Shown: one piece after another, positions 4,183 to 25,164 of the stretch | How the letters are laid out: every line of letters starts with the position of its first letter | Position numbering within the stretch: the first letter of the stretch is position 1 | Assembly: GCA_027487675.1 (NCBI GenBank) | Contig: JAIYDD010000119.1 | Location: forward strand, 1 to 40,993 | DNA length: 40,993 bases | From: Acetobacteraceae bacterium | GTDB lineage: Bacteria; Pseudomonadota; Alphaproteobacteria; Acetobacterales; Acetobacteraceae | Direction of reading: 5' to 3' | Made by a program: the position numbers and the translations under genes | Notes under the pieces: generated by a model | The model's database searches: none | What the model was told of the DNA's origin: nothing | Seen by the model: the letters and a program-made list of their open reading frames with translations, nothing else

Positions 4183-4932
4183 CTACGGGGCCACCGGCGG
4201 TCCGTAGAGCCAGACCAGCCAGATCCCGGCGGCCAGCCAGGTGCCGAAGGCGATCCGCTGCCCGGCCTCGAGCGGCGCACCGCCCGCCAGCCGCACCGCC
4301 AGCGCCTCCGCCAGGCCGAGAAGCGCCGCCGCCAGCACTGCCCCCGGCAACCCCGCCGGGCCGAGCCAGGCGCCGCCGGCGGCCAGCAGCTTGGCATCGC
4401 CAAGACCGAGCCCCTCCCGCCCGCGCAGCCGGCGGTAGAGCAGCGCCAGCCCCGCGAAGCAGGCCCAGCCCGCCGCCGCCGCCAGCGCATGCGCCACCAG
4501 GCCCGCCGGGTCGAGCAGCGCCGTCGCGCCGAGGCCGAGGCCGATCATCGGCAGCGTCAGCGCGTCTGGCAGCAGGAAATGCCGGCGATCGATCAGCGCC
4601 AGGGCCAGCAGCCCCCAGCCGAGCAGGCATGAGGCCAGCAGCGCGGCGCCCGAAGCCTCCGTCCAGGCCCAGAGCGCGACGCCGAGCGCGGCCAGTTCCA
4701 TCGCCGGATAGAAGCGCGGGATCGGCGCCGCGCAGTGCCGGCAGCGCGCGCCGAGCAGCGCGCGGCCGACCAGCGGCAGCATGTCGCGCGCCGACAGGGC
4801 ATGGCCGCAGGCCGGGCAGGCCGAACGGGCGAAGCCGACCGGCCGGCCCTCCGGCAGGCGCAGCACCAGCGTGCCGAGGAAGCTCCCGATGAAAGGCGCC
4901 GCTGCCAGGGTGCCGAGACTGATCGGGTCCAT
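4183..4932 (-). CDS. gspO: Prepilin peptidase / N-methyltransferase (PilD/GspO family)
   Basis: 249 residues with seven to eight hydrophobic segments: a polytopic inner-membrane aspartyl protease that removes the leader of pseudopilins and methylates the new N-terminus. The N-terminal cytoplasmic loop has the zinc tetracysteine pattern CPACGHAL...CRHC (about 39-69). The catalytic aspartates are visible in LALIDRRHFLLPD (about 110-122) and in the GLGLGDAKL motif (GxGD, about 173-181). It is encoded convergently with gspK (81 bp between stops) and divergently from tpsA. It most likely processes GspK and the other pseudopilins encoded upstream of the window. ATG at 4930-4932. Confidence 0.93.
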   Translation of the reverse strand: MDPISLGTLAAAPFIGSFLGTLVLRLPEGRPVGFARSACPACGHALSARDMLPLVGRALLGARCRHCAAPIPRFYPAMELAALGVALWAWTEASGAALLASCLLGWGLLALALIDRRHFLLPDALTLPMIGLGLGATALLDPAGLVAHALAAAAGWACFAGLALLYRRLRGREGLGLGDAKLLAAGGAWLGPAGLPGAVLAAALLGLAEALAVRLAGGAPLEAGQRIAFGTWLAAGIWLVWLYGPPVAP

Positions 4933-4975: not shown

Positions 4976-5063
4976 AATTCGCCGCTGACGCCCCGGCGGG
5001 AGGGATCGGCGAGGCTGGTCGTGGAACAAGGGCTGCCTTCCGAACCTCCAACCTGCAGTGCAC

Positions 5064-8000
5064 ATGTCCGCCCCGTCCAGCCTGCCCAACCCCGCCATCG
5101 GCCGCCGCCTGCTGCTGCTCGCCTCCGTGAGCCTCCTCGCGCTGTCGGCGGCCAGCCCCGCCGTGGCGCAGTCCGGGCCCTTCGCCCGGCGCGGCGCGGC
5201 GGCGGACCCGGCGGCCGCCGCGGCGCGCAACCTTCAGGTGCAGGCGCAGGAAGCCGCAGCCGCCCAGCAGCACGCGCAGGCCGCGCTGCAGGTCTTTGCG
5301 CGCGCCGCGCAGACCCAGGCGGCGATGGCCGGCCTGCAGGCGGCGGCGCGCGCCGCGGCGCAATCGGCCGCCGTCACCGTGCCGAACGGGCTCGAGGCGG
5401 GCGGTCTGGTGCCGCAGACCGGCGCCTCCACCTGGCGCGGGGCGGAGGCGCCGGTGCAGGGCGCCGGCAGCGCCGCCGACCGGATCCGCGTGACGGTGCG
5501 CCAGACCGAATCCCGCGCCATCCTGACATGGCAGAGCTTCAACGTCGGGCGAGAGACCGATCTGCGCTTCGACCAGTCCGCCGGCGGGACGCGGGCGCGC
5601 GAATGGGCGGTGCTGAACCGCGTGGAGGACCCGACCGCGCAGCCCAGCCGCATCCTCGGCTCGATCACCGCCGAGGGTCAGGTCCTGGTGATCAACCGCA
5701 ACGGGGTGGTGTTCGGCGGCGCCTCCCAGGTCAATGTCTCGACGCTGATCGCCTCGGCGCTCGATCTCGGCGGCTGGGGGGATGCGGTGCAACTCCGCGA
5801 CCAGCGCTTCCTCGACGGGTTGCTGACGGCGCCGAACCAGGCCGGCAATCTGGCGCCGACGCTGTCGCACGACATGCCGGCACGGCTGCGCGACGGCAAT
5901 TCCCCGCGCCGGATCGCAGTGGAGGTGGAGGCCGGCGCGCGCATCACCCTGCGCGAGGAGGGATCGGCGATCCTGGCCGCGCCGGTGGTGGTCAACGCGG
6001 GCAGCATCACGGCGCCGCGCGGACAGGTGATGCTGGCCGCGGGCGCCGGACTGCGGCTCGACACGCCGCCTGTATCCCGCTTCGGTGCGCGCATCGGGCT
6101 GGTGGCGGAACCGCTGCGCCGCGGCGAGGGGACCGACACGAGCCGCCTCGACGCCTATCCCTTCGAAGCGCGCAACGAAGGCCTGCTCTCCGCGCCGAGC
6201 GGCAACGTCACGCTTGCCGGCTATCTCGCCACCAACGCGCCGGGCGCGGTGCTCTCGGCCACCACGGCGAGCAACCGGCCCGGCTCCATCACCATCCAGG
6301 CGCGCGATTTCGGCGGCGCCGCATCGGCCAACACCAGCGGCAGCCCCACCACCGTCCAGGGGTTCCGCTTCGGCGTGGCGACCCTCGGCCAGGGCAGCCT
6401 GGTCACCGTGACGGCCGAGACCGGCGCGGACCAGGTGGTCTTCAACACCGCCACCACGCCCTTCGAGCAGTCTCGCCTGTACCTGATCGGGGCCGCGGTG
6501 CGGATGGAAGCCGATGCGGTGGTGCGGGCACCGGCGGGCGGCATCCGGATCGCCGGCGACCTGCCGCAGCGGCTGTTCGGCAACGCCACCAGCGGCGGGC
6601 GGCTGCAGACGCTGCTGATGGAAGCCGGCTCGGTGATCGATGTCGGCGGCCTGAAGGACCTGACGGCGCCGGTGTCGCGCAACATGATCGAGGTGCAGCC
6701 GCTGCGCAACGAACTGCGCGACGCGCCGCTGCAGCGCGAGGGCTGGCTCTATTCGTTCGGCCAGCGCGGCGAGCGGGTGACCGTCGATACCCGGCTCGGC
6801 AGCGCCATCCTGGACTGGCAGCCCGTCGCCAATGGCATTCCGGTCAGCGTGGCGGAGCGCCAGGGAACCGGCGGCTCCATCGAGATCGCGGCGGAGCGCG
6901 TGTTCGCCCTGCAGGGCTCGCGGCTCGACGTGTCGGGCGGGCTGATGACCTGGCAGGGCGGCGAGCGCGCGGCGCAGACCCGCCTGCTCGGCGCGGATGG
7001 CCGGGTCTACCGGATCAGCGACGCCTCGGCCGATGTCGAGTATGTGGGCCGCGCCGGCGACCATGCCGCGACGCAGCCGCGCTGGGGCGTGCGCCAGAGC
7101 TTCGCCGCGCCCGTCCAGGCGCAGCGGCGGGAGACCGAAGCCGGCTATGTCGAGGGCTTGGACGCCGGCTCGGTCAGCATCAGCGGCCGCTTCTACGGCG
7201 ACGGCGTGGTCCAGGGCGGCGCCTTCACCGGGACGCGCCAGGCCAGCGCCGGGCGCGCGAACGACGCCAACCCGATCACCACCACGGACCTGCCCTCCGG
7301 CGGCGCGCTGTCGTTCCTCGGCTTCCGGCCGGTCGACTCGACCGATCTGCCGGTGACCCGCACCAGCGGCATCGGCGGCCTCGTCAACCCGACCTTCGTC
7401 ACCGCGGTCGAGACGCCGCTGCCCGCCGATCTCGGCACGCGGCTGGACGGCCCGGCTTCGATCAATGCCGCCGACCGGCGCCTGCGCCTGATCGGCGACC
7501 CGCTGCCGGTCGAGCGCTTCGACACGCAGCTTTCGACGCGCGACGTGATCAACCGCGGCTGGTCCGCCGTGACGATCGAGGCGGATGGCCGCGCCACGCT
7601 GGCCGAAGGCGTCGCCATCTCGCTGCCCGCCGGCGCCCGGTTCGGCCTGAACAGCTGGAGCGCGAGCATCGCCGGCAGCATTGCCGCGCCTGCGGGCGCC
7701 ATCGCCATCGCCGCCAATGCCGGAGACCGGGTGACTGCCGCGGCGGAGACGCTGGCGGCGCCCGCCCTGAACCGGATGCCGGAAGGCGCGCCGGCCGGGC
7801 CGATGGACGGCGCGATCGAGATCGCCGCGGGCGCGGTGCTGTCGGTGGCGGGGCTCTGGGTGAACGACTTCCTGGCCGCGAGCGAGGGTGGGGCGCCGTC
7901 GGGGCCGGCCTTCCTGTCGGGCGGCAGCATCACCCTGCAGACGCGCTTCGCGCCGTTGCGCCCGCAGCGCGGGCAGACGCCGAGCGAGATCCCGCCGCTG

Positions 8001-11000
8001 CCTGCCGGCGCGGTGGTGGACAGCCTGGCCGTGGCGGTCACGGGGCGGGAGATCCGGCTCGGCGAGGGGGCGCTGCTCGACGTCTCGGGCGGCGGGCGGA
8101 TCGCGTCGAACGGCCGGACGCTGACCGGCGCGCGGGGCGGCACGCTGACGCTGGCCACCCATGCCGGCCGTGCCGCGAGCCCGACCGGCGCGCCGCTGGT
8201 CGCCGGCGCCATCGCGGAGGGCCTGGTCGGCTACTACATCGCCGGCGCCCATGCGGGCGTCGCCGATGCCGGGGCGGTGCTGCGCGGCTTCGGCACGGGG
8301 CGGGAGGGCGGCGGCGCGGCGAACGGGCTGGGCGGCGTCTTCGCGCTGGCCGCGCCGTCCCTGGTCGTCGGCCGCGCGCCGACGGAGGCGGAGGCGGCGC
8401 AGGGGACGCGCCGGGTCGACCTCGACGCGCTGGCGGCCGCCGGCTTCAGCGACCTGCGCCTGTCCGCCCCGATCGCCGGGCGCGTGCCTTTCCAGGGCCT
8501 GCCGGCCGGGCGCATCGTCATCGCCGACGGCGCCGAGATCGCGCCGCTGGCGGCGAGCCGCATCCTGTCCGCTGACAGCCGCGCCGCGCCGACCGGCGCG
8601 GCGGCCGAGGCGTGGAGCCGCACCGGCGTGGCGGCGCGCGAGGACCGCGCGCCGATGCGGCTGAGCTTCCACGCCGGCTCCACCCTGTCGGCCGGCGACG
8701 CGGCGACGCGGATCGCCGCCGATCCCGGCGCTGCGCGCCCCGACAGCGCCGCGCTGGTCAGCCTGGCCGCCGCGCAACCGATGCTGCTGCGCGGCACGCT
8801 GGAAGCGCCGGCCGGCGCGATCGAGGTCACCGGCACCGGGCCGTCCGGCATCTACGGCGTGATCAGCGGCGATTCGATCCTGCGCGAGGTGCGCGGCGGC
8901 GAGTTCTCGCTCGGCCACGCGCTCTGGCTGGCGCCGACCGCGCGGCTGCTGGCGCCCGGCGTGGCGGACAGCGTGACGACCTCGGCCGGGCTGGTCGCCG
9001 GCGGGGTCCGCGCCGGCGGCAGCGTGACGCTCCAGGAGAGCCGCGGCTACCTGGTGATCGAGCAGGGCGCGCTGATCGACGTCTCCGGCGTGGCGGGCCG
9101 GACCACGCTGCTGACCGGCGCGCTGCCGCCCGACGCCGGCGGCAGCCTGGCCCTGTCGGGCGATGCCGGGTCGATCACGCTGTCCGGCGCGCGCGGCGCC
9201 TTCCTGGACGGCACGCTGCGCGGCGAGGCTGGCGGGCCGACGGCGCGCGGCGGCACGCTGGTGCTGCGCTCGCCCGTCCCGGTCTTCATCGAGACGGCCA
9301 CGCTCGCCTTCCCGACGCCCACCATCAGCGTGCCCTTCAACCTGACCGGCTTCACCGGGATCGTGGTGCGCCAGGCCGGGTCGTTCCTGCCCGCGGGGCT
9401 CGGCTTCGGCGACCGCATCGATGCGAGCCTGGTGCGCAGCGGCGCCATCGCCTGGTCGGGCGGGGCGCTGACCGGCCAGGCCTTCCTGGCCGCCTCGGGC
9501 CTGGACGGCAGCGGCATCGACAGGCTCTACCTGGCCGGCGTCAACCACCCGGTCCGCTTCGAGGGCGCCGTGACGCTCTCCCTGCCACGGGCGTTGCAGA
9601 TCGAGGCGGCGCAGATCGAGGCGGGGCCGCTCGGCGGCGCGGCCCCGGACATCCGCCTCTCGGCCGGCTACATCCTGCTGAACGGCGCGATCGTGGAGCC
9701 GCTGCGGGCCACCGCGCCGGCCAGCGGCACGCTGGAACTGGCCGCGGGCTGGATCGACGTGCTCGGCGGCGTCGCGCTGCGCGGCGCCGCTTCGGTGACG
9801 CTCGGTTCCGCCAACGACATCCGCCTGGTCGGCACGGTGCCGGACGTGACGGACCGCGGGTTCGGCCGCGTGCGCGGGGCGCTCGACAGCCAGGGCGACC
9901 TGACGCTGCGCGCCGCGCAGGTCTACACCGCGACGGGGACGGCGTTCCAGGTGAACGCCATCGGCGCGCCGGGCGAAGCGGCCCGGACGATCCGGATCGA
10001 GGGGCCGGGCGGCGCGCCGCCCGCGGCGCCGCTGTCGGCCGGCTCCATCCTGACGGTGACGGCCGCCCGCATCGAGCAGGCCGGCGTGCTGCGCGCGCCG
10101 CAGGGCCTGCTGCGCCTGCGGCCGGCGGAACGGCTCGACCTGCTGCCGGGCAGCCTGACCTCGGTCTCGGCCGAGGGCCGCGCGGTCCCCTATGGCGAAC
10201 TCGTCTCCGACCAGGGTGCGCTCGGCGTGGCGCTCACTCCGGCCAGCTTCGGCCCGCTGGCCGTGGGCAGCGGCGGGATCGCGGCCCCGCCGCCGCGCGC
10301 CATCGAGATCGACACGCGGGAGGTCCAGGCCGCCGCCGGCGCGGTGCTCGACGTCTCCGGTGGCGGCGAGCTGCTCGGCGTCCGCTTCGTCAGCGGCCCC
10401 GGCGGCTCGCGCGACGTGCTCGCACGTGCCACGGTGACGGTCGGCCCGGGCGGCGACCCGGTGCTGTCGAACTACCAGTTCGCCGACCGCCGCGACGTCT
10501 TCGCCATCCTGCCCGGCGTGCAGCCGGGGGCGGCGCCGGTCTCGCCCTACATCGTGGACAGCGGCACCTCGCTCGGCCGCGGCGACGTGACGGCCGACCT
10601 GCCGGTCGGGAACCGCAACGTCTATGGCCAGCAGGTCAGCGGCCTGCTGCCGACCATCGGCGACCAGATCCGCGTCCCGGGCGGCATCCCCGGCCTGCCG
10701 GCGGGCAGCTACACGCTGCTGCCCGGCCGCTACGCGATCCTGCCCGGTGCGTACCGCGTGGTGCTCTCGCCCGGCCAGGCCGGGCCGGCGGTGGCGCGCG
10801 CCGAGGTGGCGCCGGTGGCGCGCCCCGATGGCAGCTGGCAGGTCGGCGTCAGCCGCGCGGTCGCCGGCAGCGCGCTGGTCGAGGATCGCTGGCGGGTGGC
10901 GGAGATCGCGCCCGCCTCGACCTGGCGGCGCTATTCCGACCTGACCGTCACGGCCGCCACCGCGTTCTTCGCCGCCCGCGCCGCCGCGCTGGACGAGGCG

Positions 11001-14000
11001 CTGCCGGTCCGGCCGGTGGATGGCGGACGGCTGACCCTGGTCGCGCGCAACGCCCTGGTGCTGGACGGCACGTCGCTGTTCGGGCGCGGCCCCGGGGGCC
11101 GCGGCGGCGAGGTGGAGATCTCCGGCGACCGCATCGCCGTCACCCGCGACGGCGCGCCCTATTCGGCGGACGGCATCGCCTATTTCGCGGTGTCGGACGC
11201 CACGATCGATGCCCTGGGCGCTGAGTCGGTGACCATCGGCGGCCTGCGGCAGGCGGAGGCGACGGGCCAGCGGCTCGACATCCGGGCCGCCGCGGTGGCG
11301 ATCGGCGAGGGGGCGCGGCTCAGCGCGCCCGACCTGCTGCTGCTGGCCCGGCGCCCTGCCGGCAGCGCGGCGCGGCCCGGGGACGGCATCACCATCGGCG
11401 CCGGCGCGGAACTTTCGGCCGAGGGCGCCGGCGGCGGGACCGATCTGCTGCTCGGCCGCGTGCCGCAGAACCTGTTCGATGCCGGCCTGTCCGGCGCGGG
11501 GGCCGTGCTGCGGCTGACCGGCGCCCCCGGCGGCGCGCTGCTGCGCGAGAATGCCGGCACCGGGACCGGCACCGGCGTGGTGCTCGGCGCCGCGGCGCGG
11601 CTCGAGGCTGGCAGCGTGCTGCTCGACGTGACCGGCGCCTCGACCGTGGCGGGGGACACCCGCATCGCCGCCGCGGCGCTCGATCTCGGCGGCGCGTCGC
11701 TGGTGCTGGGCGATCCGCCTTCCGGCACGGCCACGGGCGGCATCGGGCTCGGCAACCAGGTGCTGGCGGGCCTCGCCGGCATCGAATCGCTCACGCTGCG
11801 CAGCCGCGGCGCGATCGACGTCCACGGCCAGGTGGCGCTGTCGGGCGGCACCGTGCTGATCGACGCCGCGGCGCTGCGCGGCTTCGGCGACGCCAGCCTG
11901 TCCGTCACCGCCGCGCGGGTGGCGGGCCTGCGCAACTCCGGCGCCGCCGCGGCCGGCGCGGCGCCGGCGGGCGCCGGCACGCTGGCGCTCGCGGCGGCGG
12001 AGGAGATCCGGCTCGGCGGCGGCGCGGTGGCGGTGTCGGGCTTCGGGACGACGCGGCTGGAGACGCCGGGGGCGCTGGTCGCCGCCGGCACCGGCAGCCT
12101 GGCGCTGCCGGGCGCGCTGCAGGCGCAGGCGGCGCTCCTCGCCGGCGCGCCGGGCGCCGACCTTACCCTGCTGCTGCCCGGGGACGCCGCCTTCGCCCGG
12201 CCGGCGAGCGCCGCGCCCGCGTTGCCGCAGGCCGGGCTCGGCGCGCGGCTGGCGGTCGAGGCGGGCGGCGGGATCACGCTGGACACCAACCTGGCCTTGC
12301 CCGGCGGCACGGTGGTGCTGGCCGCCGGCACGGGCGACGTCCGGCTGGGCGCGGCGGCGGCGATCGACGCGCGCGGCGCCGAGCGGGCCTTCTTCGACGC
12401 GGTGAAGACCGCGCCCGGCGGCATGGTGACGCTGCGCTCCGTCGGTGGCTCGGTGCTGGCCGAGGCCGGCGCGCGGATCGACGTCTCGGCGGCGGCGGGC
12501 GGCGAGGCGGGCGAGATCGCCCTGCTGGCCCAGCGCGGCGCGGTGGAGGTCGGCGGTGCGGTGCTGCTCGGCGCGGCCGGGCCGGCGCAGGCCGGCGGCG
12601 GCTTCCTGCTCGACACCGGCGGGGCGGTCGACCTCGGCGCGCTCGATGCGCGGCTCGACGCCGCCGGCTTCTTCGGCCGCCGCGTGGTGCACAGCCGAAC
12701 CGGCGACCTCGTGCTTGGTGCCGGCAGCGTGTTCCGCGCCGCGGAGATCGGGCTCACTGCCGATGGCGGCAGCCTGCTGGTGGGCGGCACGCTCGACGCC
12801 AGCGGCGCGCGTGGCGGCCGCGTGGCGCTGTATGCCCGCGACCAGGTCGAGCTGGCGCCCGGCGCCCGCATCGAGGCGCGCGGCACGGAAGCCGGCCGGC
12901 CGGGCGGTACGGTGGAGATCGGCACCGCGCTGGGCGCGCTCCGCCTCGACGGCGCGACGATCGACGTCACCGGCAACGACCCGCTGCGCGGCAGCCTGGT
13001 GCGGCTGCGCCTGCCGGAGGCCGCGCTGGCCGGAAGCGGCTTCGGCGTGGTGGTCGCGGGCGCGCGCCGCGTGGAGGTCGAGCCGTTCCGGCAGATCACC
13101 ACCGCCCAGCTGGGCCAGAGCGCCTTCAACGCCGCCTTCAACGCCGCGGCGGCCGTCGATGTCCGCGGCCTGTACCTGGCGGACAGGCCAGCCGGCTGGC
13201 GGGTGACGCCCGGCCTCGAGCTGCGCGTGGACGGCCCGGTCTCGCTCGCCGCGGCGCTCAACCTCGCGGCCCTGCGCAGCGCGGCGGGGGATCCGGGCGT
13301 GCTGACGCTGCGCGCCGCCGGCGACCTCGAACTGCTGGCCTCGATCAGCGACGGCTTCGCCGCCGCCGCGCCGAACGCGCTGCACGCCGCCGGCCGGTCC
13401 TGGTCCTACCGGCTGGTCGCCGGCGCGGACCTGGCCAGCGCCAACCCGATGGCGACGCGCTCGGCGGCGCCTGGCGCGGGCGGCAGCGTGCTGGTCGGCC
13501 GGCCCTGGACCTTCGACCTCACCCGCTTCGTCAGCAACAACGCCGGCAACCCGGCGACGGCGCCGGTGACGGTGCGGACCGGCACCGGCAGCATCGACAT
13601 CGGCGCGGCGGGCGACGTGCTGCTGCGCGACCCGGACGCCACGGTCTACACCGCCGGCCGGCCGGTCGCCGAGCGCAACACCGTCACCGCCACCGGCCCG
13701 GACGGCACGACGGTGACGGGCCATTTCTTCGACCCGGTCGCGCCGACCTACGCCGCCGCCGCGCCGAGCCTGGCCGACATCTTCACCGACCCCTCGGTGC
13801 CCGAGAACGACCGCGCCTATCCGGCCGGCTATCCGGTCGAGGGCGGCGACCTGCGCATCGCCGCCGGGCGCGACATCCGCGCCACAGTGCTCGACGCCGG
13901 CGGCAACAATGCCGGCCAGGTGGCCAGCGCCTGGCTGTACCGCCAGGGCGCGGTGGACGCCGAGACCGGGCTATTCATCTACCGCCCCGCGATCACCGAG

Positions 14001-16811: not shown

Positions 16812-16834
16812 GATGCGTGCGGCGACGGTCCGGG

Positions 16835-16856
16835 GCGGCGCGAGGTTTCGCGCCGC
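16835..16856. terminator. Stem-loop between convergent tpsA and the TPS operon, probable bidirectional terminator
   Basis: GCGGCGCGA, a GGTT loop and TCGCGCCGC form a perfect 9-bp stem 23 bp after the tpsA stop and 69 bp after the end of the opposing operon. There is no T-tract on either side, so termination may be weak or Rho-assisted, as is common in very GC-rich genomes. Confidence 0.5.
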
Positions 16857-16925
16857 GCGGCCCGGCCCGCACCGGCCGCGGCGCAGCGCCGGCCCGCCTG
16901 TCGCCTGGCGGCGGCGCCGGCCTTC

Positions 16926-17867
16926 CTATCGGGCGGAGGCGCTGCCCGCCGCGACGCGGCCGAGCTGGATCTCGTCGATCTGGATCGGCTCGCGCCGCAG
17001 CAGGTCGGCCACCGCCAGGCGCGAGAGTTCCTGCGCGCGGGCCTGCCGCAGCGCGGCGACCAGGCGGTCGCGCACCTCGGCCAGTGGCGCCGGCGCGGCC
17101 GGGCGGGTCGCGTCCAGGCGCAGCAGGTGCCAGCCGGTCTCGCTGCGCACCGGCTCGCTGATCCCGCCCTCCTCCAGGCCGGACAGCGCGGCGCGGATCG
17201 GCTCGACCACGCGGTCCTCGGCCACCCAGTCGAGCGCGCCGCCACGAGGGGCGGAGGCGCGGTCCTCGGAATGGCGGCGGGCGAGTTCGGCGAAGTCGGC
17301 GCGGTTGCGCGCATTGGCCGGCGCCGTGGCCTGCGCGCGCAGCTCGCGCAGGCGGCGCTGCGCCGCCTCGTCCTGCTCGCGAGGGGCGCCCTGCGGCACG
17401 GCCATGAAGAGCTGGGAGACGCGGAACTGGCGCGGCTGCATGAAGCGCGTGCGGTTGGCGTCGTAGGCGGCCTGGATCTCCGCCTCCGACGGGAAGGCGG
17501 CGGGCGGATCCGACATCGCGTCGAGATAGGCCTCGGCCAGCGCGTCGAGCCGCGCCTGTTCGAGCCGCGCGGCGACATCGGGCCGCTGTTCGAAGCGCTG
17601 CGCCCGCGCCTCCTCGACCAGCGCCATGCGCAGCATGCGCGCGCGCACGAACTGCGCCAGCGCCTGGGGGTCGCGCCGCAGCGCCTCTCGCGTCTCGGCG
17701 GGCTCGCGCGCCAGGATCTCGCGCAGCTGCGCCTCGGTCAGCGTCGTGGCGCCGCGGCGGGCGACCAGCGGCGCGGGGGTGGCGGACGCGCCCGGCGCGG
17801 GCGCCTGCGCGGCCGCCGGGCTCGCCGCCAGCGCGAGCAGGAGCGGCGGCAGCAGGACGATGCGCAT
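16926..17867 (-). CDS. Periplasmic parvulin-type peptidylprolyl isomerase
   Basis: 313 residues from the ATG at 17,867: a signal peptide (MRIVLLPPLLLALAASPAAAQ), then a SurA/PrsA-like helical N-domain (TLTEAQLREILAREP ... LRMALVEEARAQRF). A parvulin PPIase domain (about 140-255) has RQFRVSQLFMAVPQG, ELARRHSEDR, GGALDWVAEDRVVEPI and ETGWHLLRLD. The C-terminal helix follows. Such enzymes catalyse cis-trans isomerisation of proline bonds and chaperone outer-membrane or secreted proteins in the periplasm. It is the last gene of the - strand operon, 2 bp after the coiled-coil gene. A role in keeping the giant TpsA or the barrel proteins export-competent is an inference from position. The open frame continues upstream through the preceding gene, but only this part has coding character. 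Confidence 0.85.
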   Translation of the reverse strand: MRIVLLPPLLLALAASPAAAQAPAPGASATPAPLVARRGATTLTEAQLREILAREPAETREALRRDPQALAQFVRARMLRMALVEEARAQRFEQRPDVAARLEQARLDALAEAYLDAMSDPPAAFPSEAEIQAAYDANRTRFMQPRQFRVSQLFMAVPQGAPREQDEAAQRRLRELRAQATAPANARNRADFAELARRHSEDRASAPRGGALDWVAEDRVVEPIRAALSGLEEGGISEPVRSETGWHLLRLDATRPAAPAPLAEVRDRLVAALRQARAQELSRLAVADLLRREPIQIDEIQLGRVAAGSASAR

Positions 17868-17869
17868 TC

Positions 17870-18598
17870 TCAGTTCGTGCCGCGCCGCGGCCGTTCCTGC
17901 GCCGCCGGCGGCAGGGGCGTGGCGGGCGGCACCGGCGGGATCGGGAAGCCCGCGCGGTGGAAGCGCCCGTCGCGGATGCGGTCCTCGTGCTCCTGCACGA
18001 TGTTCTCGAGCCGGGTGCGCCAGATGCCCAGCAGCGGCTCGCGGCTGCGGGTGAGGAGGGACTGGAAGTCCGGCGTCTGGTACAGGTTCAGGATCTCGGT
18101 CGCGGTGCGGAACAGCTCGGTGTTCTTCACCTCGCAGGCATCGATGGCGGCGCGGGCGCGGGTCAGCGCGGCCTCGGTCGCGGCGCGCTCGGCCTCCTTC
18201 TGGCGCGCCAGCTGCAGCGCCTCGGCCTGGGCGCCCGCAAAACGCCCGAGCGCCTGCTGCTGGGCGGCCGACTGCTCGGCCTGGGCGCGGGCCAGGCCGC
18301 GCAGCCGCTCGATCTCCTGCACCATCTCGGGCGGCGGGCCGGGCGGGCCGCGGTTCTCGAGCTCCGTGACGCGGGCGCGCGCCGCCGCCAGGTCGCGCTG
18401 CATCGCGTCGCGCTGGGCGCGCGCCTCCGTCGCCTCGGCCTGCAGGCGGGCCTGGGCGTCCTGCAGGCTGCGCAGGTCGGCGGTGGCGCGCCGCAGCGCC
18501 TCGCGCAGCCGCGCTTCCTGGTCGGCCTGGGAGAGCGCGGGCGCCGCGGGGAGGAGGGCGGCGAGCAGCGCGAGGGCGGGCAGGGCGTGGCGTCGCAT
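17870..18598 (-). CDS. Periplasmic coiled-coil protein of unknown function
   Basis: 242 residues with a clear signal peptide (MRRHALPALALLAALLPAAPALSQA). A long Ala/Glu/Arg/Gln-rich heptad region (about 25-145) is predicted by eye to be coiled coil. A conserved-looking block follows, with a single cysteine (CEVKNTELFRTATEILNLYQ, about 153-172), then WRTRLENIVQEHEDRIRDGRF and a proline-rich tail. I do not recognise a named family. The ATG lies 2 bp after the porin stop, and the stop lies 2 bp before the PPIase start, so it is firmly embedded in the operon. A periplasmic spacer, tether or holdase role for the secretion or TonB complex is possible but unproven. Confidence 0.75.
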   Translation of the reverse strand: MRRHALPALALLAALLPAAPALSQADQEARLREALRRATADLRSLQDAQARLQAEATEARAQRDAMQRDLAAARARVTELENRGPPGPPPEMVQEIERLRGLARAQAEQSAAQQQALGRFAGAQAEALQLARQKEAERAATEAALTRARAAIDACEVKNTELFRTATEILNLYQTPDFQSLLTRSREPLLGIWRTRLENIVQEHEDRIRDGRFHRAGFPIPPVPPATPLPPAAQERPRRGTN

Positions 18599-18600
18599 GG

Positions 18601-20388
18601 TCAGAACCGCGCGGTGAGGTCGAGCTGGATGACATCGGCCTTGTAGGCCGGGCCGGCGATCTCCTCGCCCGACATGTAGCGCAGCCGAAGCGCGGTGTTG
18701 TGCGCGATGCCGAGCGCACCGCCGATGATGAAGCCCTTGGAATTCGTCCCGCCCAGACGGAAGTCGCTGTCGGTGAACGCGTCGAGCACCGCGTCGGATT
18801 CAAGGTAGCGGTAGGCGAAGGAGACCTGCCAGCTCAGCGCGCTGTCCACGTCGGCGTGGCCGAGCGAGAGGCGCAGCAGGTAGCCCTCGCTGCCGCCGGC
18901 GAAGGTGCTGCCGGGGCCGATGTTGTTGATGACCCCGTTCGGGGATGCGGTGCCGAACACGCCGCGCGACAGCAGCCGGGCGCGGTCGAAGCCGATGTTG
19001 TTGACGTAGTTGCCTTCCGCCGTGACGCGGTAGGGCGCGAAGCCGGTGTAGTCGAGCCGCGCGTAGAGATCGAGGATCTCGAAGGGCGAGGCGAGGCCGA
19101 AATACTGCGGCTGCGGGTCGGTCGCCGGCCGCGGCGTCAGGTTGCGCAGCGGGCGAAGCGTGTTGGTGTTTTGCGTGAAGAAGGCGCGCGTGACGTCGGT
19201 GTCGCAGGCATCGGCCGCAGACGGCACCGCGCAGGGCGAGGAGACGGAGCCCTGTGCGCCGACGAAGTTGTAGTAGCCGGCGTTGAGGCCGATGTTCCAG
19301 TCGCGCGCGAAGCGCCAGTCGCCGCCGGCCTGCAGGCCGAGCAGGTAGCGGTCGCGGGAGCGGAACTTCTCCACCTCGGTCGAGCTGAAGTTGAAGTCGG
19401 TGTTGAAATAGGGGAAGGCGCCCGCCGTCACGTAGCCGCTCAGCCCTCGCGCCAGCTCGCGCCGGTAGCGCGCGGCAATGCCGTCGAAGCCGAGATCCTC
19501 GTCGTACAGGAGATCGGTCGAGACGAAGGGGTTCGGCATGCGCCCGGCATTCACCGTCAGCCCGTCGAGAGGCGTCATCCGAAGGAAGGCGCGGTCGAGC
19601 CAGATCGCGTATTTCGAGAAGCTGCCGAACTGCCCGGCGGAGGAGGAGACGGCGCCGAAGGTCTGGTTGGTCGAGACAGGGCTCGAATCATTGCCGGTCG
19701 CCAGCCGGAACTCGGCGCTGATCCAGCTGTCGATGTCGGCCTGCACGCCGAGGCGCGCGCGCAGGCGGTAGCGGGTGCGTTCCTCCTCCGTGTTCAGCAG
19801 CGGCGCGTTGGCGGTGCCGTTCAGGTCGAAGGCGGAGCCGTTGTTGATCGACTGGAAGTTCGGGAACTGGCTGGACGGGGCATTGCCCGACGGGAAGTGC
19901 GTGAATTCCGCGCGCAGCCGCACATCGCCCGACGGCCTGATGCGGTCGGTCCATTGCGGCGCGGCAGGCGTGGCAGCGGCGGCGGCGCCCTGCGGGCGCA
20001 GTTCGGCCATCACGTCGCGGCGCACTTCCTCGCGGATCTGGCGGCGCACGGTCTCGGGCACGAAGGTCACGCGCACCGTTCCAACCGGCACCTCCGCCGG
20101 GGCGACCGCATCGGCCGGTGCCGAAGGGCGCGTCGCCGGCCGTGCCGCTGCCGGGGCCGGCACGACGGCCGCCGGGCGGGCGGCCCGCTGGGCCGTCGCC
20201 TCGGCCTCCGCCTGGCGCAGCAGCGCATCGGCCTGGTCGCGCGTCAGCACGCCGTTCTGGATCAGGATCTCGATCAGCCGCACCGTGGTGTTGGCGGCCG
20301 CGGCGTTGCCCGCCGCATCCGCGGCGAAGAGCGCGCCTAGGGCGGCGATGAGCGCCACCGGCAGCCGACGCGTTCCGTTCCGAGCCAT
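18601..20388 (-). CDS. Putative outer-membrane porin (Porin_5-like)
   Basis: 595 residues from the ATG at 20,388, which has a GGAG about 9 bp upstream; an ATG at 20,430 would overlap tonB and spoil the signal peptide. After the signal sequence comes a short helical block, LIEILIQNGVLTRDQADALL, then an Ala/Pro linker. A second helical motif, VRVTFVPETVRRQIREEVRR, is typical of the putative-porin family. From about 170 the protein is beta-barrel-like, with many alternating strands (RIRPSGDVRLRAEFTHF, RYRLRARLGVQADIDSWISA, LDRAFLRMTPLDGLTVNAGR) and a C-terminal strand ending in Phe (DVIQLDLTARF), as required for BAM recognition. Substrate unknown. It sits in the TonB/TPS operon and may be an accessory outer-membrane channel for it. 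Confidence 0.85.
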   Translation of the reverse strand: MARNGTRRLPVALIAALGALFAADAAGNAAAANTTVRLIEILIQNGVLTRDQADALLRQAEAEATAQRAARPAAVVPAPAAARPATRPSAPADAVAPAEVPVGTVRVTFVPETVRRQIREEVRRDVMAELRPQGAAAAATPAAPQWTDRIRPSGDVRLRAEFTHFPSGNAPSSQFPNFQSINNGSAFDLNGTANAPLLNTEEERTRYRLRARLGVQADIDSWISAEFRLATGNDSSPVSTNQTFGAVSSSAGQFGSFSKYAIWLDRAFLRMTPLDGLTVNAGRMPNPFVSTDLLYDEDLGFDGIAARYRRELARGLSGYVTAGAFPYFNTDFNFSSTEVEKFRSRDRYLLGLQAGGDWRFARDWNIGLNAGYYNFVGAQGSVSSPCAVPSAADACDTDVTRAFFTQNTNTLRPLRNLTPRPATDPQPQYFGLASPFEILDLYARLDYTGFAPYRVTAEGNYVNNIGFDRARLLSRGVFGTASPNGVINNIGPGSTFAGGSEGYLLRLSLGHADVDSALSWQVSFAYRYLESDAVLDAFTDSDFRLGGTNSKGFIIGGALGIAHNTALRLRYMSGEEIAGPAYKADVIQLDLTARF

Positions 20389-20426
20389 GCGATCCGTCTC
20401 CGACTTCGATGTGTGCCGCGGCCGCG

Positions 20427-21242
20427 TCATCCGCGCGCCGCGACGCGCGCCACCATGGGCTGCGGCAGGTCCGCTGCCGGCGGCTGCAGCTGGCAATTGC
20501 GATAGACCTCGATGACGGCAGCGTCGCGGCCCTGGTCGCCCGTCGTGCCGACCAGCTGCACCCGGCTCGGCCTGCCGTTCGGTTCGATCCAGAGCCGCGC
20601 CGTCACCTGGTAGGTGCCGACGCGCGTCCGCTCGTTCTGCTGCAGGCAGCGCTGCAGGGCGGCGGAGGCGACGGCGGCATAGCCGCCGAAGCGGGAGCCG
20701 GCGCCGCCGCCCGGGCCCGTGCCGGTGCCGCCGATCACCCCTGTTGCGCTGCCGCCCGGCAGGCCGAAGGGATTGGCGCCGCCCGGGCCGGTCGGCAGGC
20801 CGAGCCCGGCCGGCGGCGCGGGCGCCTGGGGCTGAGGCGCCGGCTGGGGCTGCGGCTCCACCCGCTGCAGGGGCTGGTCCTGCACGCGCGGCTGGATCGC
20901 CGGCTCCGGCGGCGGGTCGGGGCGTTCCTGCGGCGGCGGGGGCGGCGGGGGCGGTGGAAGCTGCACGCGCGTGACCGTGGTGACCACCTGGCGCTGCTGG
21001 TGGTGGCCATCCGCTTCGAGCAGCGTCCAGCCGAGATAGCCGGCGCCGCCGAGAAGCAGAAGGCCGACGACGGACAGGCCCAGGCGGCGGCGGGCTGCGC
21101 GGCGCTCCTCCGCTTCCTCGGCGGCGATGAGTGCGGCGAAGCTGTCCTCTGCGGACGCGGCAGCCGGCGCGGCGGCGGGCGTCGCCGCCGGGCGCTCCGC
21201 CTCCGCCAGCCCGCCCGCGCCGCGATCCGCGCCGTCCGCCAT
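20427..21242 (-). CDS. TonB-like energy-transducing protein
   Basis: 271 residues. A cytoplasmic N-terminus of about 50 residues precedes one transmembrane helix (GLSVVGLLLLGGAGYLGW, about 53-70). Next is a periplasmic proline-rich spacer with a PPPPPPPPP run and PQPQPAPQPQ repeats (about 95-145), then a Gly-rich section. The C-terminal domain has TYQVTARLWIEPNGRPSRVQ, the strand-turn-strand pattern of TonB C-termini. Two cysteines flank that domain (LQRCLQQ and YRNCQL) and could form a disulfide in the periplasm. TonB proteins carry energy from the ExbB-ExbD proton channel to an outer-membrane partner. No TonB-dependent receptor gene lies in this window, so the partner is more likely one of the operon's own outer-membrane proteins, or an unlinked receptor. 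ExbD is encoded 20 bp upstream. Confidence 0.85.
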   Translation of the reverse strand: MADGADRGAGGLAEAERPAATPAAAPAAASAEDSFAALIAAEEAEERRAARRRLGLSVVGLLLLGGAGYLGWTLLEADGHHQQRQVVTTVTRVQLPPPPPPPPPQERPDPPPEPAIQPRVQDQPLQRVEPQPQPAPQPQAPAPPAGLGLPTGPGGANPFGLPGGSATGVIGGTGTGPGGGAGSRFGGYAAVASAALQRCLQQNERTRVGTYQVTARLWIEPNGRPSRVQLVGTTGDQGRDAAVIEVYRNCQLQPPAADLPQPMVARVAARG

Positions 21243-21262
21243 GTGCGCCCGGCCCGTCCCGC

Positions 21263-21673
21263 TCAGCGCGCCACGACGCGCTGCGCTGCCAGCCCGATGG
21301 ACTGGATGCCGACGCGCGCGCAGATGTCGAGCACCGCCATCACCTTTTCGTAGTGCGCGGTGCGCTCGCCGCGCAGCACCACGGGCAGGTCGGGCTGGGT
21401 GGCCTTCAGGTCGCGCAGCCGCTGCTCCAGCTCGGCGAGCGAGACGGGGATGGCGTCGATCGAGACCGCGCCGTTCTCCGACACGCTGATCACCTTGGTC
21501 CGCGGCACCGCGAGGCTGGTGGCGGAGGAGGCGGTCGGCAGATCCACCCGCATGCCCTGCACCGAGGCCGTCGTCATCAGGATGAAAATCACCATCAGCA
21601 CGTAGGCGAGGTCGAGCATCGGCGTGATGTTGATGTCGTCGTAGGGCTTGTCTTCGTCCTGGACCTTGGCCAT
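21263..21673 (-). CDS. exbD: ExbD/TolR-family biopolymer transport protein
   Basis: 136 residues. The cytoplasmic start is followed by the conserved segment DDINITPMLDLAYVLMVIFI, whose transmembrane aspartate (MLD, about residue 21) is the proton-carrying residue of the ExbD/TolR family. A roughly 90-residue periplasmic domain ends in the usual alpha/beta fold (HYEKVMAVLDICARVGIQSIGL). It forms the proton channel with ExbB and energises a TonB-like protein. The start ATG has a GGAG 9 bp upstream. It lies between the ExbB-like gene (51 bp) and the TonB gene (20 bp). Confidence 0.93.
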   Translation of the reverse strand: MAKVQDEDKPYDDINITPMLDLAYVLMVIFILMTTASVQGMRVDLPTASSATSLAVPRTKVISVSENGAVSIDAIPVSLAELEQRLRDLKATQPDLPVVLRGERTAHYEKVMAVLDICARVGIQSIGLAAQRVVAR

Positions 21674-21724
21674 CGCGTCAGGCTCCGCGGCGCGGGAGAG
21701 GCAGGGGAAGGGCGCGCATCGGCA

Positions 21725-23566
21725 TCACTCCGCCGCCGCGCGCAGCTTCGGCGCGTCGGGCGCGATGCCGCCCTCGCCGATGCGGGTGACCAGTTCGTCG
21801 GAGAAGATGCGCATGTCGGCGTTCAGGTCGCGGATGCGCGTCAGCAGGTAGTTGTAGGCGAACAGCGCCGGGATCGCGACGGCCAGCCCCGCGACGGTCG
21901 CCGCCAGCGCGGCGGCGACGCCGGGGGCGATCGCGTTCACGTTCACATCGCCCGCCGCGGCCACCGCGGCGAAGACGATCATCACGCCGACCACCGTGCC
22001 GAGCAGGCCGATGAAGGGGCCGCCCGAGATCGCGATGGTCAGCATCACGATCCCGCTGCTGAGCTTCTGCCCCTCCACCGTGATCTCCCGGTCCACCGAG
22101 GCGCGGATCGAGGCGAGCGAGGCGGCGGAGAGGTTGCCCGCGCGCGCGATGCCGCCGCGCGTGTCCAACTCCTCGAGCCCGGTCTGCCACATGCGGTAGA
22201 GCGGGGATTTCCGGTAGCGGCGATGCGCCAGCGGGTCCGACAGCCCCTCGACGCCGGCGATGCCGCGCGGGCCGGCCTTCGCCAGCGCCTCGCGGAAGGC
22301 GCGGCGGAAGGCGCGGTTCGCCTTGGCGGAGGCGCCGATGTAGAGCGCCTTGGCCGCGAAGATCAACCAGGTGATGGGCGCGATCACCGCGCAGATGCCC
22401 ATGACGATCCAGGCATCGATCGTCAGGTTGCGCACGATGATCGCCAGGTAGCCGGTGCCGAAGATGGAGCCTTCCTCCGGCACGTCGAAGCGCAGCAGGT
22501 CGCCGCGCGGCCCCTCGCCGCGCGCCGCGGCTTCCAGGAAGGCGCCGCTGCGGTCCGCCTTGGCGATGCGCACCACGTCGATGCGGCCGGCGAAGCCCGG
22601 CAGGGGCGAAGGCGTGGCGGCGTCGGGCAGCGGCCCGCCGAGCGCCGCGGCGCCGGCTGCGGCGGGCAGCGCCGCCGGCGCCTCCGCCTGCGGACGGCCA
22701 TCGAGGAACAGCCGCAGCCGCCCGCCCGCCGCGACGAGCGCGACGTGGCGCCAGGACTCCGCGGGGATCGCCGTGGCGCCGGCGATCCGCACCGGCTCCG
22801 CCCCCGCCGCGGCGAGGCTGGCGAAGGGCGCGCCCTGCGAGAGGCCGAGCGTCAGCAGCCCGCCATCGGCCAGCCGCGCCTGGTAGAGCACGCCCTCGGC
22901 CGCCGCGGCATCGGGGCGCACCCAGATCGACCAGGTCATGGTCTCACCGGCCCGCCAGCCGAGCGTCGGGCTGTCGTTCAGCTGGATCAGGTCGGTCCCC
23001 GACAGCGCCTGGCCGGAGGCCACCAGCCCGTCGTCGCGCCGCCCGCCGGCCGGGGCGGCGGGGTTGTTGCCATAGCCGGTCAGGTCGCGGAGCTGCCCGC
23101 CTTCCTCGCCGAAGTTCAGCGCCAGCACGGTCTCAGGGTCGAAGCTCTCGCGCGCGTTGCCGGCGGGCGGGGCGTTCCTGTTGCCCCAGTAGACGTAGAT
23201 CGGCGTGCCCTCGGCGCCCATCCGCAGGTCCGGGATGCTGACCCAGAACAGGCCGACCTGCTCCAGCAGGCTGTCGTAGCGCTCGACGTGGAAGCGCAGC
23301 GGCGTGCGGTCGTCGCCGGCGACGAAGCGCAGGTCGGTGCCGTCTTCCTTCGCGTTGTTGAAGTTGAAGACGCCGCCATGCAGGCGAACGAGCACCAGCG
23401 TGCGGCCGGCGCTGCGCGGCGGCGTCGCCTCAGCGCCCTGCGGGTCGGCGCCGACCACGATGCGCATGCGATAGGCCCAGTCGGCGTTCCACCATGCCTG
23501 CGCCGCCCCGGGCAGGACCCCGAGGCCTAGCAGGAGCGCGAGTGCGAAGACGAGGCGTCGTGTCAT
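21725..23566 (-). CDS. ExbB/TolQ-family proton-channel protein fused to DUF2341 and LamG-like domains
   Basis: 613 residues from the ATG at 23,566, about two and a half times the length of ordinary ExbB. The start is a signal sequence (MTRRLVFALALLLGLGVLPG) followed by WWNADWAYRMRIVV, the opening of the DUF2341 family. The next part has FNFNNAKEDGTDLRFVAGDD and IYVYWGN (about 26-135). A concanavalin/LamG-like section (about 140-350) contains MTWSIWVRP, ESWRHVALVAAGGRLRLFLDG and RIDVVRIAK. The first membrane helix lies at about 372-400. The ExbB core follows: TIAISGGPFIGLLGTVVGVMIVF (about 500-530) and APGVAAALAATVAGLAVAIP (about 545-570). The large N-terminal part should sit in the periplasm. 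It begins 5 bp after the tpsB stop. ExbB function follows from the family; a glycan- or protein-binding role for the extension is inference. Confidence 0.9.
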   Translation of the reverse strand: MTRRLVFALALLLGLGVLPGAAQAWWNADWAYRMRIVVGADPQGAEATPPRSAGRTLVLVRLHGGVFNFNNAKEDGTDLRFVAGDDRTPLRFHVERYDSLLEQVGLFWVSIPDLRMGAEGTPIYVYWGNRNAPPAGNARESFDPETVLALNFGEEGGQLRDLTGYGNNPAAPAGGRRDDGLVASGQALSGTDLIQLNDSPTLGWRAGETMTWSIWVRPDAAAAEGVLYQARLADGGLLTLGLSQGAPFASLAAAGAEPVRIAGATAIPAESWRHVALVAAGGRLRLFLDGRPQAEAPAALPAAAGAAALGGPLPDAATPSPLPGFAGRIDVVRIAKADRSGAFLEAAARGEGPRGDLLRFDVPEEGSIFGTGYLAIIVRNLTIDAWIVMGICAVIAPITWLIFAAKALYIGASAKANRAFRRAFREALAKAGPRGIAGVEGLSDPLAHRRYRKSPLYRMWQTGLEELDTRGGIARAGNLSAASLASIRASVDREITVEGQKLSSGIVMLTIAISGGPFIGLLGTVVGVMIVFAAVAAAGDVNVNAIAPGVAAALAATVAGLAVAIPALFAYNYLLTRIRDLNADMRIFSDELVTRIGEGGIAPDAPKLRAAAE

Positions 23567-23571
23567 GAGGA

Positions 23572-25164
23572 TCAGAACTCGCCGCGAATGCGGAACAGGG
23601 TGCGGAACGTACCGGCCGGCGTCAGCGGCCCGTCGAGCAGCGTCGCCGCGCCTTCGAGCGAGCCGTGCAGCCCGCCGAACAGCTGCACGCGCGTGCCGAC
23701 GCCGGCCGAGAGCAGCTGGCTGCCGGCGGATTGCTGCGGCAGCGGCCGATGGATGCCGAGGGAGGCGGCGTCGAGGAACGCGTGCACGCGCACCTCGTCC
23801 GCCCGCGGGCCGATGAGGCGCGCATAGGAGGGGCTGCGGATCTCGAGCTGCGCGGCCGCGCCGAAATCGCCCAGCGTCTCGACCTCGTAGTAGCCCCGTA
23901 CGCTGTCCACGCCGCCGGCGCCGAACTGCTCGTTGCTGATCAGCGGGTCGCGCGCCAGCTGGCCCTGCGTCGCGCCGTAGAGCTGCATGTCGTTGGCGAA
24001 GCGGCGCAGGTGCGAGCCTTCGGCGCGCAGATGCGTCCAGCTGGCCGAGGCGAAGGCGCGCTTCTGCTCGAACTCCGCCGTGTCGCTGCCGAAGCCGCGC
24101 AGCCCCGCGGTCAGCGAGGCGGAAGCCTGGGTGAGGGTCTGCTCGCCGCCCCAGGCGGCCTGCCAGGCGGCAGTGACCGGGTAGTAGGTGACGGGCACGT
24201 CGGTGCGGTCGGCGCCCTGGATCAGGCCTTCCTCGAAGGCCTTGCGGTCGATGCCGAACACCAGGCTGTGGTTGAACCCCGGCTCGGCGCCGAGCGGCAG
24301 CAGGCCGCGCAAGCCGACGATGGTGCCGCGCCCGACAACGGAGGTGCCGCCGACCGCGGCGACGTTGCTGTCGGAGCGCACGGCGGAGACCAGCAGCCCG
24401 GCGCCGCTGGCGCTGCCGGGGATGCGCCAGAGGTAGGAGCCGGAATAGACCGCGGCGTTGCGCGTGTCCTGCGGCGCGGTCTGGAAGCCGAAGCTGACCG
24501 AATCGCCGCGCTGCCAGAGGTTGTCGTAGCGGACATTGCCCGACAGGCGCAGCGGCTCTGTGTTGGCGCTGCGGCGGTTGTTGAGCTCGGCGCTGGCGCG
24601 CAGCGGCAGCCGGTCCTCGACGCGGAGGTCGACATCCACCGTGTCCGGCGCCGCGCCGGCGCGCAGCTCCGGCGTCACGCGGCGGTCGGGCGAGCGGTTC
24701 AGGGCGATGACGTCGCGCTGCACCGCGCCGAGGTTCGGCACCGTGCCCTCGGCGACCGAGGGCGCCTGGCGGCGCACCTGGCTTGGCACCGTCCATTCGG
24801 CGCCGACCACGCGCAGCCGCCCGACCGGCCGCTCCACCACCCGCAGCGTCACCACGCCGTCGTCCACGCGCTGCTGCGGCAACTCGACCGACACGGTGGC
24901 GAAGCCCGCCTGGGCATAGGCTTCCTCGAGCGCGGCCCGCGCGCGCTCGATGTCCGCCACCGTGCGACCGGGGCCGAGATGCGGATAGACCGCCTCCTCG
25001 ACCGCCAGCGGCGGCAGGGAGCTGTTCCCGACCACCCGGTATTCGAGGATGGCGAAGCGCGGCGATGCGGCCGGCTGCTGCGCGTCGACGCGTCCGGCGC
25101 CGAACACGGGCATGAGGCCGGCCGAGACCAGCGCGGCGAGGGGCAGCATGCGGGCGCACCACAT
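23572..25164 (-). CDS. Two-partner secretion transporter (TpsB, FhaC/ShlB/HecB family)
   Basis: About 530 residues from the ATG at 25,164; ATG 25,149 is an alternative, and the open frame to 25,239 adds an unlikely leader. The signal peptide is LPLAALVSAGLMPVFGAG. POTRA1 (about 35-110) has EYRVVGNSSLPPLAVEEAV and VSVELPQQRVDDGVVTLRVV. POTRA2 (about 112-185) includes RDVIALNRSPDRRVTPELR. The 16-strand barrel runs to the C-terminus, with the Omp85-superfamily VRGY motif (SVRGYYEVE, about 421) and a terminal Phe (FRIRGEF). This family recognises the TPS domain of a partner exoprotein with its POTRA domains and passes it through the barrel pore; the neighbouring 5,064-16,811 product is the obvious partner. 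It is the first gene of a seven-gene operon. Its mature part appears to lack cysteine. Confidence 0.92.
   Translation of the reverse strand: MWCARMLPLAALVSAGLMPVFGAGRVDAQQPAASPRFAILEYRVVGNSSLPPLAVEEAVYPHLGPGRTVADIERARAALEEAYAQAGFATVSVELPQQRVDDGVVTLRVVERPVGRLRVVGAEWTVPSQVRRQAPSVAEGTVPNLGAVQRDVIALNRSPDRRVTPELRAGAAPDTVDVDLRVEDRLPLRASAELNNRRSANTEPLRLSGNVRYDNLWQRGDSVSFGFQTAPQDTRNAAVYSGSYLWRIPGSASGAGLLVSAVRSDSNVAAVGGTSVVGRGTIVGLRGLLPLGAEPGFNHSLVFGIDRKAFEEGLIQGADRTDVPVTYYPVTAAWQAAWGGEQTLTQASASLTAGLRGFGSDTAEFEQKRAFASASWTHLRAEGSHLRRFANDMQLYGATQGQLARDPLISNEQFGAGGVDSVRGYYEVETLGDFGAAAQLEIRSPSYARLIGPRADEVRVHAFLDAASLGIHRPLPQQSAGSQLLSAGVGTRVQLFGGLHGSLEGAATLLDGPLTPAGTFRTLFRIRGEF

Follow-up and report, generated by a model that had tools for sequence, protein, structure and literature searches.

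A Ton-like motor module accompanies DUF3739-class two-partner secretion, with a conserved motif in the TpsA tail as its candidate target

Two-partner secretion (TPS) is said to run without a hydrolysable energy source or gradient (PMC5422565), and its energy source has elsewhere been called unclear (PMC8151025); these papers, like the others cited below, are represented here by parts of their text. What, then, might an ExbB-ExbD-TonB gene set be doing inside a TPS locus? The question is raised by a 40,993-nucleotide stretch of DNA from an Acetobacteraceae bacterium (assembly GCA_027487675.1, contig JAIYDD010000119.1, positions 1 to 40,993; hereafter the window), which has 75.0% G+C and belongs to a draft genome of 288 contigs that is 96.9% complete. 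Its minus strand carries, in order, tpsB, a DUF2341-LamG-exbB fusion, exbD, tonB, and the genes of a Porin_5 porin, a coiled-coil protein and a PpiC-type prolyl isomerase (PPIase), all convergent with a giant plus-strand tpsA. A preliminary description, made from the letters alone, had reported this one-strand gene set, and recomputation together with Pfam searches confirmed it: from tpsB to the PPIase gene the intergenic gaps are 5, 51, 20, 38, 2 and 2 bp, and 114 bp lie between the stop codons of tpsA and the PPIase gene. By the criteria of a TPS domain and a POTRA/ShlB transporter, the predicted proteins make this a type Vb two-partner secretion locus. Our answer, to which we give about an even chance, is that two-partner systems of the class marked by DUF3739 work with a Ton-like motor whose action on the TpsA tail completes export of the fibre, releases it or keeps it in place.

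We found that the genomes with DUF3739 are also those with the Ton module. DUF3739 was detected in 14 of 398 Pseudomonadota genomes. An ExbB query at 1e-20 matched 43 of the 398, in 13 of them across the DUF2341-LamG part; in one more (G284), whose contig begins inside exbB, the match is confined to ExbB residues 324-599 and the module is seen only in part. The other ExbB matches listed begin only at about residue 358. The 13 genomes and the partial G284 are the same 14 that contain DUF3739. Similarly, the Pfam DUF2341 model alone identified 12 genomes, 12/12 of them within the 14, missing the window's own gene (at the DNA level) and G284. ShlB-type TpsB proteins were present in 165 of the 398 genomes, including 13 of the 14 (not G284); since the module was found in 14, most TPS genomes lack it. 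A second sample consisted of 192 genomes from the phylum of a related locus labelled Spartobacteria (L075), which we take to be Verrucomicrobiota. Here DUF3739 was found in 6 genomes, and matches that start at position 8 or before and run to the end of the ExbB model occurred in the same 6, the other matches listed covering one part. Fisher tests, which assume independent genomes although these share descent, gave P values of 4.4e-26 for Pseudomonadota and 1.6e-11 for the second phylum. Judged from genome sequences, a coupling of the Ton module with DUF3739-class TPS, even where the two are unlinked, is well supported: in the two samples, no DUF3739-class two-partner system was found without its own Ton-like module.

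The coupling is also seen in gene order. We compared 93 loci, comprising the best 80 of 233 confirmed relatives (species genomes) and 13 stretches, with some near-identical congeners among them; the 3.8-kb locus L052, from G284, was left out of the neighbourhood counts. ExbB sequences were aligned as a set of 13, window included (alignment A1), and as a set of 37 rows (40 named sequences minus L076, L086 and L097). A tps gene was linked in 91 of the 93 loci, so that the preliminary proposal of a Ton module that goes with this TPS class held both within loci and across genomes. So did its expectation of a neighbourhood conserved beyond this strain: among the best 80 of 233, the relatives, going by their titles, include members of the alpha-, beta- and gammaproteobacteria as well as taxa of Verrucomicrobiota type. 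Downstream of exbB lay exbD in 92 of 93 loci and, in loci with room, tonB (84/84), the porin gene (81/83), the coiled-coil gene (74/83) and the PPIase gene (35/77). The porin and the coiled-coil protein are thus constant partners of the module. The tps gene closest upstream of exbB was tpsB in 67 loci and tpsA in 21. Three of the remaining five (L086, L101 and L117) have a tps gene within the stretch, that of L086 being a tpsB directly upstream that is overlapped by an extended exbB open reading frame (ORF); L043 and L076 have none, and the genome of each encodes a DUF3739 protein elsewhere.

Two simpler accounts of this neighbourhood were rejected. A locus private to this strain is refuted by the 93 related loci, and a chance neighbourhood by 20 control stretches of 20 kb from other contig positions in the same genomes: 0 of 20 contained a tps gene, and they yielded no tpsB, tpsA, exbB, exbD, porin or coiled-coil match, one tonB and one PPIase. 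The loci also vary in smaller ways. Two exbD genes stand in tandem in 9 of 93 (L050, L091, L099, L101, L112, L121, L127, L129 and L132), and in 8 of these 9 the tps gene closest ahead of exbB is tpsA. A DsbC-like protein lies beside the module in L119 (9085-9852) and a DsbA-like protein in L076 (10452-11549), and the L043 module, which has no tps gene nearby, carries a right-handed beta-helix protein (6052-7740) in the porin's place.

On which protein might such a motor act? We found a candidate site at the end of TpsA. The window's tpsA (5058..16811, plus strand) encodes a predicted secreted fibre protein of 3917 amino acids with a TPS domain at residues 150-329 (Pfam TPS, 8.2e-16) and a DUF3739 domain (Pfam, 1e-26) at residues 3715-3852 (16200..16613, plus strand). 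In an AlphaFold2 (AF2) model of the last 330 residues, whose mean per-residue confidence (pLDDT) is 77.6, the DUF3739 domain is strand-rich, beta-helix-like and mostly confident (pLDDT 64-96 in ten-residue blocks); a search of PDB folds with this model gave no match at E <=0.001. In TpsA proteins DUF3739 is followed by a linker of low complexity, after which comes a conserved stretch close to the C-terminus. In the window, the linker comprises residues 3853-3895 (16614..16742, plus strand; pLDDT below 50 and low information content) and the conserved stretch is AVITVEILGFG, residues 3896-3906 (16743..16775, plus strand). A motif search on 29 distinct tails, kept from 37 once near-duplicates were taken out, gave an 11-residue motif of the outline S-[VI]-[IF]-[TS]-V-[EQ]-V-L-G-F-G. 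Over 47 distinct tails, those used for training among them, the motif carries 2.38 bits of information per position, compared with 0.77 in the stretch before it (the linker) and 0.88 in the stretch after.

The motif recurred in tails that had not been used to define it. Eighteen tails were held out, 6 of which duplicate a training locus or nearly match another tail (L158, L159, L162, L167, L174 and L175), leaving 12 independent ones; in 11 of the 12 the shuffle P value was <=0.005. Similarly, it was <=0.003 in all of a further 8 tails, 6 of them from second-phylum genomes, with L177 repeating L171. Overall, 44 of the 47 distinct tails (out of 62, training tails included) scored at least 12 bits. 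In the AF2 model the motif falls at residues 309-319, and the flanking residues 272-309 and 317-320 have pLDDT below 50; we read it as a probable short linear motif in a flexible tail. It resembles, in our judgement, a TonB box, most of all those of SusC-type receptors, and we regard it as a candidate TonB box. A second similar stretch (for example SPVQVLGAG) stands about 20-40 residues past the first motif in L095, L098, L079, L105 and others.

Among the ORFs of at least 130 amino acids from 94 loci, the motif sets TpsA apart: the top non-TpsA ORF scored 16.5 bits versus a training mean of 26.2. The motif matrix gave fewer than 20 bits for every TpsB, porin, coiled-coil, PPIase, ExbD and TonB hit, the best scores being 13.4 among 71 TpsB hits and 13.0 among 85 porin hits. 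The motif was also searched for, and not found, in two proteins from the loci without a linked tps gene, one of 738 amino acids in L076 and the beta-helix protein in L043. For TonB-dependent receptors the matrix could be run on two receptor-like ORFs in the sample, too few to inform. The position of the motif, 1-65 residues from the TpsA C-end, would also suit a different role, in which the conserved tail serves as a surface anchor or as a stop signal and binds TpsB or the coiled-coil protein, the Ton module acting elsewhere in the pathway. Other TpsA proteins, such as HMW1 and CdrA, carry short C-terminal anchors, which we counted in favour of this alternative. It nevertheless leaves the co-occurrence of the Ton module with DUF3739 in both samples unexplained, and we think it improbable.

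The transporter itself could instead be the client, with TonB touching the POTRA domains or the barrel of TpsB and so energising translocation of a very long TpsA. The frequent placement of tpsB as the nearest upstream tps gene fits this idea, as does a correlation between ExbB and TpsB distances (Mantel r 0.94, 71 loci, shared descent not removed), although Mantel correlations do not separate co-evolution from shared descent. Against it stand the 21 loci in which tpsA, not tpsB, is nearest, the many TpsB-bearing genomes that lack the module, and the TpsB sequences themselves, in which the motif score peaks at the 13.4 bits given above and no common N-terminal box was visible by eye across the 71. 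A TpsB client therefore appears to us a poor prospect.

Of the rival clients the porin, which accompanies the module almost as regularly as TonB does, is the strongest. In that case TpsA would capture a nutrient or glycan, the Ton motor would drive uptake through Porin_5 or its gating, and the tail motif would just anchor TpsA. The porin gene follows exbB far more faithfully than the PPIase gene does, and a LamG-like domain on ExbB fits a porin or glycan client. Moreover, PA0696, which occupies the porin's position in Pseudomonas aeruginosa and is described as a putative porin (PMC7035377), is among the proteins most enriched in that species under phosphate limitation (PMC9769906). However, Pfam assigned no plug domain to the window's porin, the motif is missing from every porin hit (top score within the first 170 residues, 5.5), and the L043 module lacks a porin, yet the L043 genome keeps DUF3739. 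We consider a porin client unlikely. The preliminary description had proposed a TonB-energised form of two-partner secretion, or a system that powers display, release or use of the fibre, and had offered TpsB and the porin as clients. The idea of energy coupling to the pathway is strengthened by our results; as to the client, the sequence evidence favours the TpsA tail at least as much. That motif, and the LamG domain between DUF2341 and ExbB, were absent from the earlier account.

The motor genes have features of their own. The window's exbB (21725..23566, minus strand) encodes 613 amino acids in which ExbB stands behind a predicted periplasmic DUF2341 and LamG part (Pfam MotA_ExbB 5.4e-26, Laminin_G_3 4.4e-14, DUF2341 4.7e-9). 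The AF2 model of the fusion (mean pLDDT 88.1) has two beta-sandwich parts followed by channel helices. In Foldseek searches the front resembled concanavalin-like domains, with an arabinanase as the best match (E 1.9e-8) and clostridial neurotoxin binding domains among the others, a likeness of fold only, and the back resembled TolQ and ExbB. Next come exbD (21263..21673, minus strand; Pfam 5.2e-27), which has the channel Asp, and tonB (20427..21242, minus strand), with a transmembrane helix, a proline-rich stretch and a TonB C-terminal domain (27.6 bits with the NCBIfam model tonB_Cterm, whose cut-off is 27.1). Across the class, Thr occupies the ExbB148 position in 94/94 ExbBs and the channel Asp is present in 103/103 ExbD hits.

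TonB works by strand addition and pulling. We infer the following mechanical steps. TpsB would export TpsA, the C-end of which, a DUF3739 cap and a flexible tail, would stay in the periplasm or pass last. The TonB C-terminal domain would bind the tail motif by strand addition in the manner of a TonB box, and ExbB-ExbD would pull on the tail by means of the proton-motive force, loading the cap through the flexible linker. If the cap unfolded, TpsB could export the last part or release the fibre; if it did not, the pull could hold an anchored fibre under tension. The DUF2341-LamG part of ExbB might act as a collar through which the motor attaches to glycan, peptidoglycan or TpsB, and the PPIase might assist folding. 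TonB is known to contact the TonB box of receptors (PMC2729926); here the direct client would be an exported protein rather than an outer-membrane receptor, with TonB gripping the tail box in both Pseudomonadota and Verrucomicrobiota, a proposal that we hold tentatively, at somewhat below an even chance.

Several observations weigh against a motor that grips the TpsA tail. The conserved Glu of ExbB (E. coli Glu176) is replaced by Ala, Gly or Ser in 90/90 parsed ExbBs of 94, the site pattern having matched elsewhere in 4/94, which were left out; by comparison, TolQ/ExbB proteins from 17 scanned loci have it in 15/15 parsed. With the Glu replaced, the motor may be altered or idle. The residue has been called essential in ExbB; the ExbB3 of Sphingobium SYK-6 also lacks it, and the exbB3 deletion mutant grew like the wild type (PMC8599685). 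Because the channel Thr and Asp are kept and the Glu is replaced, the ExbB-ExbD-TonB machine is, by its predicted residues, Ton-like and not a canonical Ton system. TonB is the weakest gene assignment, with a Pfam TonB_C match below cut-off (E 0.04); among five relatives scanned in the tonB position, 4 match TonB_2 over cut-off and L058 falls below. TonB pulls inward, so that any help with export must be indirect. As for the motif, held-out tail L170 reached only a shuffle P of 0.02, 3 of the 47 distinct tails score below 12 bits, and the motif could instead bind TpsB, the coiled-coil protein or the porin. Profile searches of NCBIfam and PDB found no link from the motif to TonB-dependent receptors, a result that neither supports nor excludes a TonB box, as 11-residue motifs rarely score in such searches. 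Finally, P. aeruginosa transposon mutants in tpsA, tpsB, PA0695 (a tonB homologue) and PA0696 were as virulent in zebrafish as the wild type, so that loss of this TonB had no phenotype there (PMC2729926).

Might this simply be an ordinary Ton system that happens to lie here and serves TonB-dependent receptors, the genome's single one included? The draft contains three MotA/ExbB-family genes, the window's and two named by eye from sequence and neighbours as TolQ-like and MotA-like, and one Plug protein, encoded outside the locus; Pfam found no Plug domain among the eight locus proteins. With no further ExbB found apart from the TolQ-like and MotA-like proteins, the module's ExbB-ExbD pair may, in this organism, serve that receptor as well. 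An ordinary Ton system would, however, account for neither the DUF3739 co-occurrence nor the class-specific ExbB fusion nor the missing Glu, and on another contig lies a second tonB gene whose product matches TonB_C strongly. We regard this explanation as very improbable. If a motor does act on the TpsA tail, a seemingly simple export route may use cell energy, Ton systems would gain a new kind of client, and DUF2341 and DUF3739 would acquire suggested roles; a candidate TonB box at the substrate end makes the TPS energy question testable.

The remaining genes of the locus were assigned as follows. The tpsB gene (23572..25164, minus strand; ORF to 25239) encodes POTRA and ShlB/FhaC barrel domains, both over the Pfam cut-off (ShlB 2.4e-18, POTRA_2 4.4e-15). 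In many TpsB proteins, the window's included, POTRA appears, by eye, to follow the signal peptide and a short low-complexity stretch, leaving little space for a plug helix of the FhaC type. The Porin_5 gene (18601..20388, minus strand; Pfam 9e-181) has an alternative ATG at 20430 that would make it overlap tonB. The coiled-coil gene (17870..18598, minus strand), for which a Pfam scan gave no family over cut-off, is placed by its conserved position, that of PA0697. The PpiC-type PPIase gene (16926..17867, minus strand; Pfam Rotamase_2 9.6e-20) encodes, by eye, a signal-peptide-like N-terminus. Elsewhere in the window, an RTX/serralysin-type protein (HemolysinCabind, Peptidase_M10) is encoded near the locus at 27670-29418, and a mismatch-free 26-bp unit is repeated 3.3 times at the contig end (40908-40993).

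The arrangement itself has been in print since 2009, as the pdt locus of P. aeruginosa. The preliminary description knew of no experimental account of this combination, a statement that does not stand, as the same order, with expression data and transposon mutants, has been published for PA0690-PA0699 (PMC2729926). According to that paper, the sigma factor VreI upregulates PA0690 (tpsA), PA0692 (tpsB), exbB2, exbD2, PA0696-PA0698 and the PpiC isomerase gene, and homologues of the TPS, ExbBD and PA0696 proteins occur together in P. fluorescens, P. entomophila, B. vietnamiensis, R. palustris and Janthinobacterium. A single promoter has been reported for phdA, pdtB, exbB2D2, tonB4 and PA0696-PA0701 (PMC4971064), and PdtB/PdtA has been termed a functional TPS system, with exbB2-exbD2-tonB4 "still uncharacterized" in 2020 (PMC7035377). 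In the accessible parts of the open-licence literature we found no functional test of the pdt Ton module, and a text search of that literature for DUF3739 returned no paper. What is new here is the strict co-occurrence of module and DUF3739, the TpsA tail motif, and the predicted ExbB architecture with its missing Glu.

We compared the window with pdt by published description, using Pseudomonas loci such as L079 as stand-ins for the P. aeruginosa genes. Both share the order tpsB-exbB-exbD-tonB-porin-PA0697-PpiC; tpsA is separately transcribed in P. aeruginosa and separately encoded in the window; and type II secretion genes adjoin tpsA in both, in the window a GspD secretin (851-3244, plus strand) and a prepilin peptidase (4183-4932, minus strand). 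Counting the window, 7 of 94 loci contain a GspD-like ORF. The two differ in that P. aeruginosa has PA0698 (YbjN) between the coiled-coil and PPIase genes, where the window has a 2-bp gap. A further comparison is with SiiAB, a MotAB/ExbBD-like motor dedicated to the giant adhesin SiiE. As a proton-driven motor in type I secretion (PMC12204202), SiiAB is an earlier example of a motor reserved for a single giant adhesin; likened by description only, the two systems share this feature, whereas SiiAB/SiiE belongs to type I secretion and has no TonB. HxuABC of Haemophilus influenzae likewise ties a TPS pair to a TonB-dependent process, but encodes a TonB-dependent receptor, HxuC, rather than a motor (PMC5422565); the main text of that TPS review contains no occurrence of ExbB. 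With FhaB/FhaC, finally, the window system shares the TPS domain and the POTRA and ShlB barrel domains, and to these it adds a Ton-like module, DUF3739 and the tail motif.

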